Positions 17,928-24,866 of a stretch of DNA of 46,654 bases are shown here, in pieces; the stretch's first letter is position 1, and the number at the start of each line of letters is the position of its first letter. The DNA is from an uncultured Pseudomonadota bacterium (lineage in GTDB: Bacteria; Pseudomonadota; Alphaproteobacteria; UBA9219). The translations under genes and the position numbers were made by a program. The stretch is taken from NCBI GenBank assembly GCA_903869345.1, contig CAIPYM010000012.1:1-46654 (forward strand), given 5' to 3'. Below the pieces are notes generated by a model that worked only from the letters and a program-made list of their open reading frames with translations, was not told the DNA's origin and ran no database searches.

Positions 17928-19228
17928 CACGCGAAAATGTTCAAGCAATTATGTCTTCACATGATCCAACGTCCTCGGTGCTGGAAGGCCATGATTTGAG
18001 CGGCCTTGACTTAACGGGACTCACGTTTGATGGGTGGAATCTGACCAGAACAAAGTTCGACGATTGTCGTTTGATGGGGGTGCATTTTATTGATGCCATA
18101 CTCTACCATGCCGAGTTTCAGGGAGCCCACCTGCAAGGGGCTGATTTGTCCCAGGCCTGGGCACGTAAAGCGTGCTTTAGGGAAGCCAAGCTGAATGGGG
18201 CGGTCCTCCTGGGACTGCAGGCTATGGGAGCGGATTTTTCCCTGGCGGACATGAGCCCGGACCACCGGCAGCAGCCCGTTGGGGCGGCAAGTGCCAACTT
18301 CCAGCTGGCCAACTTTGCGGGAGCCGACCTTACGGACCTTCAAGCTCCAGATGCAAATCTTCAGCGGGCCCAGCTGGTGCCCGACCCCAGAACAGGCCGA
18401 AAAGTTGTTGCGCACAGGGCGAAGCTGATCGGAGCGCAGCTGGCCCGAATCGAGGTGCGCGACGCAGATTTAACGGGTGTACATCTTGATTATTCTACAG
18501 GGCACAACGCGTGTTTTTCCAATGTTACGATGCTAGACAGCTCGGCGCGAAACGCCTCCTGGCTGGGGGCAATATTGATCAAGATTATTGCTCCCCACAG
18601 CGATTGGAGCGGGGCTGAAATGAAGAAGAGCGACATGTTAGAGATCGACCTATCGGGCTCAACGCTTGTGGGTTGCCGATTCGACGAGAGCTCCTGGGGG
18701 AAGGTTTTGTTGTGTTCCGCTGATCTCACCGACGCCCATATGGAAAACATGGGGATCATGGAAGGCGATGCAACAATGGCCGATTTGTCGGGGATACAGG
18801 CCCCCGGCCTTAGGATTCAAGGAACGCCCGACACACCTTTCTTGTTTGATCGGGTGAGATTGTCCGGGGCTAACCTGACAGGCGCAACCTTGACCCGCGT
18901 CGCGTGCATAAGAGCGAACATGTCGTCTATGACAGCGCCAAGAATGAGGATGGAGGGGGGCGTCTTCTTTGAAAGCCGACTCCAGAACTCTGATCTGCGA
19001 AGAGCTGAGATGACGGGAGTCAAACTCTATCGTCCCCATTGGGAGATGTTCACTGTGGCCGAAGCTCTCCAGGGAACCCGGTTGGACGGGGCGATCGGTT
19101 TTCCTCCTTTGCGGCCACCCGTTGGATCTTGCGCCAACGATGCGTTACCAGCGTGGCTCCAGAGACTTATAAGGAGCCGCCATATGACTTCGGGTGTTTA
19201 CCGCAAACTGACCACGCTCCAGCCCTAA
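17924..19228 (+). CDS. Pentapeptide-repeat protein
   Basis: The 434-residue product is built largely of A(D/N)LXX-type pentapeptides, for example GHDLSGLDLTGLTFDGWNL, AHLQGADLSQA and RLSGANLTGATLTRV, in several tracts along its length. Such sequences fold into a right-handed quadrilateral beta-helix. No membrane segment, kinase or effector domain is attached. Pentapeptide proteins vary in role (gyrase protection, scaffolds, effectors), so I assign none. I chose the ATG at 17924 for its ATGA coupling to the leader ORF; ATGs at 17906 and 17915 are alternatives. The gene is lower in GC than its surroundings. Its stop overlaps the convergent gspE stop by four bases. Confidence 0.85.
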   Translation: MTRENVQAIMSSHDPTSSVLEGHDLSGLDLTGLTFDGWNLTRTKFDDCRLMGVHFIDAILYHAEFQGAHLQGADLSQAWARKACFREAKLNGAVLLGLQAMGADFSLADMSPDHRQQPVGAASANFQLANFAGADLTDLQAPDANLQRAQLVPDPRTGRKVVAHRAKLIGAQLARIEVRDADLTGVHLDYSTGHNACFSNVTMLDSSARNASWLGAILIKIIAPHSDWSGAEMKKSDMLEIDLSGSTLVGCRFDESSWGKVLLCSADLTDAHMENMGIMEGDATMADLSGIQAPGLRIQGTPDTPFLFDRVRLSGANLTGATLTRVACIRANMSSMTAPRMRMEGGVFFESRLQNSDLRRAEMTGVKLYRPHWEMFTVAEALQGTRLDGAIGFPPLRPPVGSCANDALPAWLQRLIRSRHMTSGVYRKLTTLQP

Positions 19229-20943
19229 CCCCACCTCCCCCGCTCCACATCCACGACGCGGCGGAGGTCGGCAAGCGCGACAAGGCCGGTGCGGACGCGA
19301 TCAAGACCGTCCTCGGCGAGGCTCCGAAAGCCGTTGCGTTCCGCCGCCGCGCGAAGCGCGACACGCCCGGATTCGGCGGCGATCAGGTCGTCCATCTCGG
19401 GCGTGAGGCGCAAAACCTCGGCCAGCGCCACGCGGCCTTGGGTCCCGGTCCCGTGGCAGCCGGGACAGCCCGGAGCCTCGGCCAGAATCGGGGGAACATT
19501 GGCCTCGGCGGGGTCACGCCCCAACAGCGCGTGCTCCTCCGCCGTGGCAGGGCGCGAATGCGCGCACGCGGGGCAAAGGAGCGGGACCAGCCGTTGCCCC
19601 ACGACGCCCGCGAGGTTCCCGGCGATCATCCGAGGGCTGAGCCCGAGGTCCACCAGGCGCGGAATGGATTCGAACGCATCGCCACAGTGCAGGGTCGCGA
19701 AAACCTGGTGACCCGTCAGCGCGGCGCGGAGCGCCATGCGCGCGGTCTCGGGGTCGCGAATCTCGCCGATCAGCACAACGTCGGGGTCCATGCGCAAGGC
19801 CCCGCGTGCGCCCGCCGCGAACGTCAGGCCTTGGGCTTCGGAAATGGGGGTCTGCCGGATCAGGTCAAGCGGGTATTCGACGGGCTCTTCCAGCGCGACG
19901 ACGTGCAGGTCCTCCCGGCTCAGGCGGTGCAAAAGCGCGTAAAGCGTCGTCGTTTTGCCGCACCCCGTGGGACCCGTGATGAGGGTCAGCCCCTGCGGAC
20001 GCGCGAGCAGCGATTCCAGCGCCGCCCGCGCCGGGGCCTCAAACCCCAACTGTTCCAACGTGCGCAAGGCGTGCCGGGGGTCCAAGAGGCGGAGCGCAAA
20101 CGTCTCGCCCCAGACGGTCGGCATGATCGCCACGCGGCAATCGACCGTCGTGCCCGCGCTCGTGAAGCGAAACCGCCCGTCCTGAATCCGGCGCGTGGCC
20201 GAGGCGTTCATCCCCGCGAGCGCCTTGATCCGCCGCGCCAGCGCGGGCCAGTGCTCCCGGTGGAGAACCCGCAGAGGGCGCAACCGTCCGTCCACCCGGC
20301 ACCGAACGCGGACGCACCCGCTTTCGGGCGCAAGGTGAAGGTCCGAGGCGCGCAGTTCGACGGCCTCGGCGAGCAGCTCATCGCAAAGGCGCGTGATGGG
20401 GTGCGTTGCAGCGGCGGCCGTCGCGGGGGTCTCGGAGAAGCCTTCCAGTTCCCGCAGCGTGGATTCCAGCGCCTCGGCGGGACCGTAGGCGCGACGGATC
20501 GCGCCCTCCAACAAGCCCGGCGCGACAAACCGCGGCGCGAGGACGACATCCCGCGGCAAGAAGCGCCGCAAAACATCCGTGGCCACGACATCAAAGGGGT
20601 CGGTCATGGCGATCCCAAGCTGCCCCTCGCAAAGGGCCAGCGGCAGGGCGCGGCAGCGTTCGGCAACGGCACGCGGCACCCGCGCAAGCCACGCCGGGTC
20701 GGGGACAAGGTCCTGGGGGGCGAGGGCGGGGATCCCGGCTTGGCTCGCCAGGGCCTCGGCCAGAATGTCTTCGGTGATGAACCCCAGACGCGTGAGCGCC
20801 GCGCCCAGACGCTCCTCCGCGCGGCGTTGTTCGTAAAGGGCAATCCGCAAATGATCATCGCTGAGACGAAAGTCGCGCCGCAGAATGGCACCCAAACGCA
20901 AGGGAAGGTCGTCCTCGTCCTCGCGGTCGTTGGACTGCGACAC
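19225..20943 (-). CDS. GspE/PilB-type secretion or pilus assembly ATPase
   Basis: The product is about 572 residues, a hexameric type II secretion/type IV pilus ATPase. An N-terminal GspE_N-like region (LGAILRRDFRLSDDHLRIAL...) is followed by Walker A GPTGCGKTTTLY and the Asp box region ALEEPVEYPLDLI. Walker B is RMDPDVVLIGEIRDPETA and the His box is GHQVFATLHCGD. A four-cysteine zinc motif follows (CPAC...CPGC). It powers pilin polymerisation from the cytoplasm. The GTG at 20943 fits; it lies within a repeat arm that provides AAAAAAGG and overlapping ATG/GTG codons, the ATG being out of frame. An ATG at 20988 would read through the repeat. It is the last gene of the pilus block. Confidence 0.9.
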   Translation of the reverse strand: MSQSNDREDEDDLPLRLGAILRRDFRLSDDHLRIALYEQRRAEERLGAALTRLGFITEDILAEALASQAGIPALAPQDLVPDPAWLARVPRAVAERCRALPLALCEGQLGIAMTDPFDVVATDVLRRFLPRDVVLAPRFVAPGLLEGAIRRAYGPAEALESTLRELEGFSETPATAAAATHPITRLCDELLAEAVELRASDLHLAPESGCVRVRCRVDGRLRPLRVLHREHWPALARRIKALAGMNASATRRIQDGRFRFTSAGTTVDCRVAIMPTVWGETFALRLLDPRHALRTLEQLGFEAPARAALESLLARPQGLTLITGPTGCGKTTTLYALLHRLSREDLHVVALEEPVEYPLDLIRQTPISEAQGLTFAAGARGALRMDPDVVLIGEIRDPETARMALRAALTGHQVFATLHCGDAFESIPRLVDLGLSPRMIAGNLAGVVGQRLVPLLCPACAHSRPATAEEHALLGRDPAEANVPPILAEAPGCPGCHGTGTQGRVALAEVLRLTPEMDDLIAAESGRVALRAAAERNGFRSLAEDGLDRVRTGLVALADLRRVVDVERGRWG

Positions 20944-21130
20944 GGCATAAAAGGGCCTTTTTTCAGCTCTGTTCCCTCTGTCCGTCATCGCAAGGCCCCC
21001 GACGGGGGCCGTGGCGATCCCTCATCGGATCTTTCCGCTAAGCCGAGAGGCCCTGCGCTGGATCGCTTCGCTCCGCTCGCGATGACGGTAGAGAGGGCAG
21101 GACAAAAAGGAGCATCCATGCCGTGCCGGA
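20938..21130. repeat. Full palindromic element with both terminal arms (type copy)
   Basis: The left arm reads CACGGCAT then CCTTTTTT and CCCTCTGTCCGTCATCGC. The right arm, inverted, reads GCGATGACGG, AGAGGG, ACAAAAAGGAGCATCC and ATGCCGTGCCGG. The interior differs from other family A copies and resembles the widespread alphaproteobacterial GATCGCTTCGCTCCGCTCGCGATG repeat. The element fills the gap between the prepilin stop and the gspE start, and its left arm supplies the gspE GTG. Confidence 0.8.
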
Positions 21131-21183
21131 GTTTACCGGTCCGAGGGACGCGTTCCAGAGAGGCGCGAGCGGGCGTCATCGGC

Positions 21184-22041
21184 TCACCACGTGGTTGAAC
21201 ACGCGCCCTGGCCCAAAAAGCTCACAAGCGCGTTGCGATCAAAATAAAGGAGACGATCGTCGAAATTGGCCCCTTGGGGATAATCACAAAAAGACGTGTT
21301 GCCGTCGGCGTTGCAGACTTCGGAAGCCGAAGAGGGTTCAGGAAACGACAGTCTTTCCCCGTTAAGGCCGTTTGACAGCGCCGAGGCCAGAAACGCGCCG
21401 TACCCGTTCGGCCCGTGGCTCACGAACACAACGGCGGCGGAAGGCGGGGGGACGGACTGTTGGGTGCTGTCTGAAAGTTGAACCGTAGGTGCCCCAGTTT
21501 TGCTGAGACCAGACTTGCACAAGCCCTTTGTACTCCCTCCCACCGTCGCACAGATGTGCGCGGTAACATCCGCCGTCGTGCAAGGCGTAAACGGTGGAGC
21601 GACCCCGAACGCGCCGGTCAAAGCCGGGTCCACACGCATCGTGATCCATAGGCCCCAACCGTCACGTGCAGCACTTGCGGGAAGGCCCAACGAGATGAAA
21701 GGGGGGATTCCTTCAGGGACACGGCCCTTGATCCAGTCTTGGTGAGAGGAACACGCGCCGCATGGCAAGCCAAGACCCTGGCTATCGAGAGGGACGCGCC
21801 CAAATTCGGGGCCCGAGACGGCACCCGGCGTCGGGCACGGCACGCAGCCGTTCGCGGTCACGAACGCGGCTGTGGCGCGGGCGAGGCCCTGGAGTGCGGT
21901 CTCGGTCGCGGCCCGTTGCGTGGATGCGCGAAGCGCGAGCATCGCCGGGTAAACCATCCCCGCAACGAGGCCGACGATCACAACCACCATCGCCGCTTCC
22001 ACCAGCGTGAATCCTCGGTGCTGAAGACGGGACGCACGCAT
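21184..22041 (-). CDS. Prepilin-like pseudopilin (type IV pilin N-terminus)
   Basis: The 285-residue product has a 10-residue basic leader ending in Gly, then the class III signal FTLVEAAMVVVIVGLVAGMVY with Glu at position +5, so it should be cleaved by a prepilin peptidase. The C-terminal part is Cys-containing (CVPCPTPGAVSG, CGACSSHQDW, PFTPCTTADVTAHICATVG), probably disulfide-bonded. It is large for a major pilin and may be a minor pilin or adhesin. The ATG at 22041 is 7 bases downstream of the preceding pilin stop. The frame stays open further upstream, but that part antisense-reads other features. Confidence 0.88.
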   Translation of the reverse strand: MRASRLQHRGFTLVEAAMVVVIVGLVAGMVYPAMLALRASTQRAATETALQGLARATAAFVTANGCVPCPTPGAVSGPEFGRVPLDSQGLGLPCGACSSHQDWIKGRVPEGIPPFISLGLPASAARDGWGLWITMRVDPALTGAFGVAPPFTPCTTADVTAHICATVGGSTKGLCKSGLSKTGAPTVQLSDSTQQSVPPPSAAVVFVSHGPNGYGAFLASALSNGLNGERLSFPEPSSASEVCNADGNTSFCDYPQGANFDDRLLYFDRNALVSFLGQGACSTTW

Positions 22042-22048
22042 GGAAGGC

Positions 22049-22759
22049 CTACATCCGGACACAGAGTGTGAAGGTGGGGTTGGCCCCGTAACTTTCTGCG
22101 ACCTTTCCGTCGCCGCTGCCCGAGGCGGTTGCTTGAATCGCGCCGGAATCGCTCTTGCCGTCATCCAAACGTGCATCAATCGCCTGCGCAGCGGTGGAGG
22201 GAACCTTGTTGAGGCACAAGACGGTCGTTGTGAAAACGCCCCCAAAGGCACCGTTTTGGAAGCCGTAGATTCCATTGAACGGGTTGGGCGGTTGAACAGC
22301 CATCGTTGTTGCGCCATCCGTTGTCTGGACTTGATTCTTGACAAGATCAGCGGCGCGGAGATGGGCCCAAACCCAACGACTTTCGCCTTTGCCATCACTG
22401 CCCGTTGTCTGATCCGTGTCAAAGGAGCTACCTGTCCCGACAAACCCATCGCCCATGGAGTCTAAGGTCTGTAATCTGGCGTTGGGAAAACGCCCCTTTG
22501 CCCCCGGATCATCGCCTGGCAACGCGCCGTAATTTTGGGCGTAGGCTTGAAATTGGGCCTGGTAGCCCTGAATCGCGTTGATCGCGTTGGTGATGCGGGC
22601 GTTTTGGATGACCTGTTGGCCCGTGAGCACGCCGCCGATGATCAGCCCCATGATCACCAGGACGATGGAGAGCTCGACGAGCGAAAACCCTCGGCAGGAT
22701 TCCCTCGCCCCCTGCAAGAAGGAGGAGAGGGGAACCGAGGATAGACGGCGGCATGGCAC
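22049..22759 (-). CDS. Type IV pilin-like protein with repeat-derived leader
   Basis: The 236-residue product carries the prepilin motif CRG then FSLVELSIVLVIMGLIIGG, with Glu at +5, followed by a helix (QVIQNARITNAINAIQGYQAQ) and a globular pilin head containing GYxxLPGDDPGA-like NYGALPGDDPGA. I chose the GTG at 22759. It has AAAAAAGG seven bases upstream and gives a 24-residue leader starting VPCRRLSS. Upstream the frame runs through a family A repeat to 22927 without a stop, so a version with a repeat-encoded N-terminus of 56 more residues cannot be excluded. It is cotranscribed with the secretin and the second prepilin. Confidence 0.87.
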   Translation of the reverse strand: MPCRRLSSVPLSSFLQGARESCRGFSLVELSIVLVIMGLIIGGVLTGQQVIQNARITNAINAIQGYQAQFQAYAQNYGALPGDDPGAKGRFPNARLQTLDSMGDGFVGTGSSFDTDQTTGSDGKGESRWVWAHLRAADLVKNQVQTTDGATTMAVQPPNPFNGIYGFQNGAFGGVFTTTVLCLNKVPSTAAQAIDARLDDGKSDSGAIQATASGSGDGKVAESYGANPTFTLCVRM

Positions 22760-22882
22760 AAAATGACCTTTTTTCTTAGCCCCGTCCTCTCCCCCGTCAT
22801 CCCGGCGAAGGCCGGGATCCCGAGCCGTTGAGACGATCGCCGCCTGAATCCCTCGGGACCCCGGCCTTCGCCGGGGTGACGG
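22744..22882. repeat. Palindromic repeat family A with left arm at the pilin start
   Basis: The left arm reads GGCGGCATGGCACAAAATG then ACCTTTTTTC and CCGTCCTCTC. The core holds CCCGGCGAAGGCCGGGATCC and CCCCGGCCTTCGCCGGGGTG. Read on the minus strand, the arm supplies the ribosome site, GTG start and first residues (VPCRRL) of the pilin. The core itself stays open in the pilin frame. Confidence 0.85.
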
Positions 22883-22943
22883 CTCTTTTGTCGGCCTCAG
22901 TCCCTGCACCCCATCGTTCATTCTCATCGCGTCCTCCTGAAAA

Positions 22944-24770
22944 CTAACGGTTCGACGGCGTCCACGACAACGGGCGCGGGTCGCGGTTGTAGCGTCGGTA
23001 CAGGTCCTTGTCCGCTCGGTCCGGCGTCGCGTCGTCCATGATGGTGGCCCGGAGCAGGATCACAAGCTCGGTCGTCTGCCCCTTGTTGTCACGTGACTTG
23101 GCAAGGTTCCCAAGGGCCGGAAACGTGTCAAACGGCGGCACCCCTTTTTCGGTGTTGATTGAACTGTCTTGCATCAGCCCGCCCATGACGGCGACCTCGC
23201 CCGAGTGCAGGCGCAGGACCGAATCCATCTCTCGTACGGCCAGAACGGGCACGGTGGAGGAGATGGGCTTGGTGACGTTCGCTTGCGCCGCGTTGAGGCC
23301 GATGGAGGGGTCCTCGGCGTACGCGACAATGCGCGAAATCGTGGGACGCAGCGTGAGGGCAATATCGTTGTCCTCGGTGTTGATCGCGGGTTGCACCGTC
23401 ATGACGAGTCCGACGGGCACCGTGCGCGGCGAGCTGGAGAACACGGGCGTCCCCGAAATGGGGACACCGCCCGCCGTGACGGTCGTTGGAAATTGCGCGG
23501 AGGTCAGAAAATAGACCTCGTTTCGTGCAACCTTGAGAACGGCGGTTTGGTTATTCAGCACCGTCAGGCGCGGAGACGACAGAATGCGCGTCGTGCCGAA
23601 CGAGCGCACAAGATTCAGAATGCCGTTGAAATCCGACTTGCCCACCGAGGCCGTAAACATGCCATCGGCGGCCGTTGTCGCGGTACTGAAGGGTGCGCCC
23701 GCCCCGACGGTTCCGAATCGCGCCGCCGTGTTCAGGCTGCCGTTAAACAGCGTGCGCCAGTTGATGCCGCTTTCGAAGCCTTCATCCAGCTGCACTTCCA
23801 CAATGCGCGCCTCAATCAACACCTGGGCCGAGGACCGCCGCGCCAGGTCTTTTAGGTAAGCCCGCACAGCCGCGTGTTGCCGGGAGGTCCCCAAAACGGT
23901 GACGAGCCCCGCTTGCCGATCCACGCTGAGGCGCGGGGCGGCGGAGGGACCTGCGTTGGCGGCCGTGGAAAGGGAGGCGGTTCCGGCAAGAACCTGGGTC
24001 AGGGAGTTTTCCATCTCGGCCCAGAAGTCCGCTTGGGTCGTGCCGACAACTTTGGATTGCGAGGTGTTGTCGGTGCGCCCACTGCCGCTCGCGCCGCCGC
24101 TGGATCCCGCGCCGCCCACGTCGGATTCAAACACGTTGGTGGAAATGGAAATCTCGTTCGACGCGCGGCGCGTCAGGTTCAGGTAATCCACGGGGTACGT
24201 CTGCGGATAAGGATCATCCGCCTCAATGCGCAAGAATCGCCCCTCAAACCGCGCACGAAGGCCTGCTGCCGCGCAAAGACGCTCCACGACCTCGCCCAGC
24301 GGCTCATGGTGGGCGCTGAAGACCACATGCCCCTGCACCCGCGTGTCCATCTCAAGGTTGAATCCGCCTGCCCGCGCAAGGTCCAGGAAAATGTTGCGGA
24401 GCGGCGCGTCCTCGGTCACCGTCACGGACACGCGCTTGAACGCCCCTTTAGGCCCGAGCTGTGCGGACGCACCCCCGGCCCTCACGAGGGGTTCCGGCGT
24501 GGGCGGGGACACCGCGACCGGCAGGGCGGGGATCGGCGGCTCTTGGCCCTCGGCCCGAGCCTTGCTCGTCTTCTCCGCCCCCAGCCGTTCAGGGCCCCGT
24601 TCGTGCAAGCCTTGGTAATCCTTGCGGGTGAGCGACCCCGTCGGGTCAATCGCGTTCGACGGAAAGAGCCGCCCACACCCGGCCAGGACCATCAGGACCA
24701 TCAACACGCTCAACCGAAAACCTCCGCAGAGCCCCTTGCTGGGCTGCGGCCCTCGAGTCTTGGGAGGCAT
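22944..24770 (-). CDS. Secretin of MshL/GspD type (outer-membrane pore)
   Basis: The product is about 608 residues and begins with a lipoprotein signal (LMVLMVLAGC). An N-domain at about residues 120-205 (VSVTVTEDAPLRNIFLDLARAGG...) is of the secretin/TonB short N-terminal type. The C-terminal secretin domain runs from QVLIEARIVEVQLDEGF to VPVLAVREMDSVLRLHSGEVAVMGGL and FPALGNLAKSRDN. It closest resembles MshL of MSHA-type pili and should form the outer-membrane channel. The ATG at 24770 has AAGG five bases before it; TTG 24788 and GTG 24782 are alternatives. It lies first in the pilus block, about 80 bases after cobT. Confidence 0.9.
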   Translation of the reverse strand: MPPKTRGPQPSKGLCGGFRLSVLMVLMVLAGCGRLFPSNAIDPTGSLTRKDYQGLHERGPERLGAEKTSKARAEGQEPPIPALPVAVSPPTPEPLVRAGGASAQLGPKGAFKRVSVTVTEDAPLRNIFLDLARAGGFNLEMDTRVQGHVVFSAHHEPLGEVVERLCAAAGLRARFEGRFLRIEADDPYPQTYPVDYLNLTRRASNEISISTNVFESDVGGAGSSGGASGSGRTDNTSQSKVVGTTQADFWAEMENSLTQVLAGTASLSTAANAGPSAAPRLSVDRQAGLVTVLGTSRQHAAVRAYLKDLARRSSAQVLIEARIVEVQLDEGFESGINWRTLFNGSLNTAARFGTVGAGAPFSTATTAADGMFTASVGKSDFNGILNLVRSFGTTRILSSPRLTVLNNQTAVLKVARNEVYFLTSAQFPTTVTAGGVPISGTPVFSSSPRTVPVGLVMTVQPAINTEDNDIALTLRPTISRIVAYAEDPSIGLNAAQANVTKPISSTVPVLAVREMDSVLRLHSGEVAVMGGLMQDSSINTEKGVPPFDTFPALGNLAKSRDNKGQTTELVILLRATIMDDATPDRADKDLYRRYNRDPRPLSWTPSNR

Positions 24771-24866
24771 CCTACCCTTCACGTGCAAAAACCCTCCGGG
24801 TTTGCAAGGGTATGCGCAAATCGCATACCAGCGTAGGCGTGAACCTGGTTTTTTTCCTACGAAAAG

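Follow-up and report, generated by a model that had tools for sequence, protein, structure and literature searches.

A pilin gene in the stretch of DNA analyzed here (the window, 46,654 nucleotides from an uncultured alphaproteobacterium) carries two unrelated palindromic repeats in frame ahead of its prepilin cleavage site. We judge it fairly likely that this arrangement reflects a two-repeat in-frame insertion, with translation starting at the ATG at 22927 and producing a tolerated, cleavable leader of 80 residues. Of these 80 residues, about 64 (about 193 nt) come from the two repeats; without them, about 16 residues remain, which is an ordinary leader length. An in-frame insertion between the start and the cleavage site would be the simplest account of the spacing. 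The features concerned are as follows.

22944 to 24788, minus strand: secretin gene, MshL/PilN-like, upstream of the pilin (PF00263, 97.7 bits)
22928 to 22943, minus strand: 16-nt gap between the secretin stop and the pilin ATG, with the Shine-Dalgarno (SD) sequence AGGAGG
22925 to 22927, minus strand: favored ATG start (80-residue leader), with position and SD as in orthologues
22049 to 22927, minus strand: pilin gene, 292 codons from ATG 22927 to the stop at 22049, frame uninterrupted; mature pilin F81-M292
about 22741 to 22892, minus strand: repeat 1, a CGTC-tagged inverted REP dimer, encoding about residues 12-63
22757 to 22759, minus strand: alternative GTG start in the repeat 1 tail (24-residue leader), SD −3.8 kcal/mol
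22692 to 22732, minus strand: repeat 2, hairpin CCCTCTCC..GGGGGCGAGGGAATCCTGCC, encoding about residues 66-79
22688 to 22690, minus strand: Gly80 codon, predicted prepilin peptidase cleavage site, invariant in a four-sequence alignment
21184 to 22048, minus strand: second pilin-like gene, downstream of the pilin (PF07963 over cut-off)
19225 to 20988, minus strand: pilus assembly ATPase with T2SSE and MshEN domains (PF00437, 334 bits; PF05157, 56.3 bits)

The class III motif of the pilin, R79-G80/F81-S-L-V-E85 (signal RG/FSLVELSIVLVIMG), passed the cut-offs of both PF07963 (26.4 versus 21.2 bits) and TIGR02532 (24.4 versus 16.3 bits), and the protein has the Gly-1 and the hydrophobic stretch with Glu+5 expected of a type IV prepilin. 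The secretin was not over the cut-off for MshL (TIGR02519, 210.5 versus 250.2 bits). The second pilin-like gene apparently has an ordinary short leader (MRASRLQHR/GFTLVE), its start being approximate. One peptidase A24 gene was over cut-off in the genome, encoding a PilD-type protein of 258 aa (at L114) that carries the motifs LVDLTFGVIPD and GLGDVK. Structure prediction of the pilin, based on four sequences (mean pLDDT 38), gave a leader without predicted structure, followed by a long helix.

Repeat 1 comprises a core (22794-22882), a short 5′ flank, and a 3′ tail of ~55 nt, with boundaries accurate to a few bases. Its units are of the type CGTC-ATCCCGGC-GAAG-GCCGGGAT-CC and are arranged as an inverted dimer. 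The CGTC terminal tag of CGTC-1 REPs is present at both outer core ends (near 22795 on the plus strand and 22881 on the minus strand), and the 8-bp stem and 4-nt loop of this class are matched by ATCCCGGC-GAAG-GCCGGGAT and ACCCCGGC-GAAG-GCCGGGGT. Stem positions 1 and 2 are both A-T in arm 1, and A-T then C-G in arm 2; both arms have CCC as their tail, where the published statement on CGTC-1 is only that most fit CCA. The repeat unit matched 11 times in the window versus 0 in 100 shuffles, while 174 half-sites were counted in the genome with up to 3 mismatches allowed (reversed-pattern control, 0) and the copy in the pilin returned 75 BLAST matches across the genome. The family is thus multi-copy, with dimers predominating among the aligned copies as for CGTC-1 REPs, and the claim of the original prediction that the leader is repeat-derived holds far beyond chance.

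In an alignment of 30 copies of repeat 1, 28 of them distinct, the short left flank was common to the copies and the ~55-nt tail to roughly a third to half of them; the tail consensus is ...GCTGAGAAAAAGGTCATTTTGTGCCGTGTCGCAGTATA, also given as ...GGGGCTGAGAAAAAGGTCATTTTGTGCCGTGTCGCAGTATA. It is to this tail that the VPCRRL codons belong, which are repeat-encoded as proposed but not by the palindromic arm to which they had been assigned. The pilin frame likewise stays open through the repeat core to 22927, as had been described. Because 40% of frames through core plus tail were open among the 28 distinct copies (58% through the core), the open frame is weak evidence of coding; it was dropped as proof, since the element is frequently open by chance. 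A weak match of GAGGCCGACAAAAGA in L085 (E = 0.045) hints that repeat 1 may reach further upstream, to about 22911, which we do not claim. Rfam returned microRNA-hairpin matches only, all sub-threshold and attributed to chance. Tail-like sequence in opposite orientation was also observed on both sides of some repeat 1 copies (the flanks in L064, L068, L069, and L073, and window 20985-21190). This arrangement suggests that repeat 1 may belong to a longer, MITE-like element bounded by terminal inverted repeats.

Directly after VPCRRL, the leader reads PLSSFLQGARESCR, which is encoded by repeat 2, an element unrelated to repeat 1 and missed by the original prediction. The family pattern, CCCTCTCC-loop-GGGGNGAGGG, frequently followed by AATCCYGCCG, was found in 34 genomic copies versus 0 for the reversed control. 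The best other copy was 85% identical (E = 2.6e-6), and others showed about 80-95% identity over short stretches.

Pilin orthologues were compared at 26 loci, where leaders counted from the SD-proximal start were 6-17 residues long. None of the 26 had a repeat-coded or comparably long leader, and the same leader was not found in repeat-free relatives, the observation that had been named as speaking against a repeat origin. The short-leader orthologues include relatives that are themselves rich in repeat 1 (G009, 86 half-sites; G012, 90), and a scan of genome contigs yielded three records, which are the contigs of three known orthologues, all with short leaders. The repeat insertion in the pilin leader is therefore seen in this genome alone among those compared, a single genome in 76 contigs whose genus has no other members in the comparison. 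The mature pilin was 57-70% identical in most family orthologues, and secretin-pilin synteny was kept in close relatives. Counted from the secretin stop, most family members reach the pilin ATG after about 9-14 nt and this gene after 16 nt; the distance to the cleavage codon was 253 nt here versus about 10-54 nt in orthologues.

A misjoining of the repeats during assembly, or a decayed and non-working pilin gene, could also be considered, as the assembly has 76 contigs and assemblies fail at repeats. We regard either as very improbable. The secretin-pilin-pilin order matches that of the orthologues. None of the long matches found to the pilin copy of repeat 1 exceeds about 85% identity, so this copy is not a collapsed one, and the mature pilin retains its frame and its conserved residues.

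Depending on the start codon, the leader has 80, 24, or 10 residues. To compare these starts, strength was measured as duplex energy to the anti-Shine-Dalgarno. The SD of ATG 22927, which is shared by a second ATG at codon 3, reached −10.3 kcal/mol and surpassed all 21 orthologues measured; orthologous pilin starts ranged from −4.0 to −9.3 kcal/mol, with a median of −6.6. The 80-residue leader is probably the best reading because the best SD belongs to ATG 22927, which is located where orthologous starts sit. The original prediction had put forward a 24-residue leader, and its arithmetic is right: GTG 22759 (residue 57) opens VPCRRLSSVPLSSFLQGARESCRG, with 24 residues to Gly80. This shorter leader is less supported, and the longer one that had been allowed for is favored, as the SD energy at the GTG is at background level: energies of −4 to −3 kcal/mol are reached by 31-47% of ATG/GTG sites drawn at random from the window.

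These energies also bear on whether the repeats are translated at all. With a start at GTG 22759 or TTG 22717, they would form an untranslated spacer, the REP hairpin serving, if anything, as an mRNA element between secretin and pilin. Leaders of 24 and 10 residues are of normal length (published range, 6-26; PMC4471445), an AAGG in the repeat 1 tail lies 7 nt before the GTG, and the REP dimer forms a strong hairpin (z = −4.2 for a 311-nt region). Many 5′ REPs are argued to be extragenic (PMC3733652), and in one relative (L051, G027) the orthologous pilin is preceded at a short distance by a similar repeat of the CGTC type, followed by a clear SD/ATG and a 6-residue leader. However, besides the background-level SD at the GTG, no SD duplex was found at TTG 22717, and the strong SD/ATG upstream is preserved in the pilin frame; ribosomes would therefore start there anyway. 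An untranslated spacer thus appears unlikely. Still less probable, in our view, is the use of both starts to give long (80) and short (24) prepilin isoforms. Two in-frame starts with SD-like sequence are present, and Geobacter PilA, with long and short prepilins having 29- and 10-residue leaders (PMC6201914), offers a precedent, but the inner GTG is weak and generic to the repeat tail (found at that position in 9 of the 30 aligned copies) rather than tuned to the pilin.

According to the favored reading, that of an 80-residue leader, two unrelated high-copy palindromic repeats would have entered the 5′ end of the pilin gene in frame, between ATG 22927 and the cleavage site. Ribosomes would initiate at the old SD/ATG and then translate both repeats, and the positively charged leader would remain cytoplasmic. 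Its charge (17 K/R, 8 D/E) agrees with what the positive-inside rule (PMC10191384, PMC4471445) predicts for a leader in the cytoplasm, and it lacks a membrane-like segment, with a maximum KD19 of 0.55 versus 2.64 in the pilin helix. At 80 residues, it would be about three times as long as the longest leader in a review listing prepilin leaders of 6-26 aa (PMC4471445), and would also exceed the longer Geobacter PilA leader. The PilD-type peptidase is predicted to remove it after Gly80, yielding a normal mature pilin, and the repeat-coded leader would be tolerated, presumably neutrally, because it is cleaved off and discarded. The notion of a repeat shaping a secretion signal is too strong: the class III core, with Gly-1, Phe+1, Glu+5, and its hydrophobic stretch, is conserved and not repeat-derived, and from the sequence it is the disposable leader that appears replaced or lengthened.

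Repeats were also found in other genes. In AddA (L087:850-3084, minus strand), a REP lies in frame between the helicase and nuclease domains; relatives are without these residues, their matches breaking at query ~473-520, and G005 has only 36 nt between. Judged by sequence, this genome tolerates REPs within genes, AddA being the best example. Candidate cases include an RNase E/G-like gene (L090:1038-2372, minus strand), whose single open frame appears to run through several distinct repeats, and a methyltransferase-domain gene (L074:896-1909, minus strand), the N-terminal half of which contains an in-frame REP. The C-terminal extension of PrmC (L072:1499-2659, minus strand) is REP-encoded. The N-terminus of the pilus ATPase, MTDRGNRAEKRPFYAVSQS (window 20930-20988, minus strand), also derives from the repeat 1 tail GATGACGGACAGAGGGAACAGAGCTGAAAAAAGGCCCTTTTATGCCGTGTCGCAGT; its ATG lies within a TGACGG repeat end, and this N-terminus differs in the seven orthologues read. 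It is doubtful, though conceivable, that the tail (AAAAAGG-N7-GTG) is a portable initiation signal, supplying a ribosome-binding site together with a start codon and so giving new N-termini to the genes behind it. If true, one mobile repeat would rewire the starts of the pilin and of the pilus ATPase, about 2 kb downstream in the same cluster.

In-frame REPs in genes are already known, and the pilin leader is a variation on this phenomenon. CGTC REPs have been described inside genes, including N-terminal cases and repair genes, with the warning that many 5′-end REPs are really untranslated, the start lying downstream (PMC3733652). Repeat 1 shares with them the CGTC tag, 8-bp stem, 4-nt loop, inverted dimers, and alphaproteobacterial host, as well as in-frame copies in recombination-repair genes, here AddA. 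Unlike in those cases, the REP here lies between the start and a secretion-signal cleavage site, beside a second repeat family, and many copies bear a ~55-nt tail. For a repeat, of ~150 bp, inserted in frame in unrelated genes, the classic example is that of the Rickettsia palindromic elements (PMC10969869); host and sequence are different, and the sole link is the CGTC superfamily (RPE-6 = CGTC-1, PMC3733652). Geobacter PilA likewise has two possible in-frame starts giving a long and a short leader, but no repeat is mentioned there, and the predicted lengths here are 80 and 24. MSHA-like type 4 filaments resemble this cluster in combining an MshL-like secretin, an MshEN ATPase, and class III pilins, although the secretin here falls under the MshL cut-off. 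What differs in the present gene is that the repeats lie inside a cleaved-off leader, with two unrelated families stacked as far as the codon preceding the cleavage glycine. A limited literature search found no case of repeats within signal peptides, whether of prepilins or of other proteins, which does not prove their absence.

For annotation, the pilin serves as a warning that repeat-coded N-termini may be real or may be misread starts, and orthologues together with Shine-Dalgarno strength can help decide between the two. In addition, the gene provides a natural test of the length and oddity that a prepilin leader can reach before the peptidase fails. A leader that is cleaved off would be a safe landing place for a mobile repeat, and this may help explain the survival of some in-frame repeat insertions.
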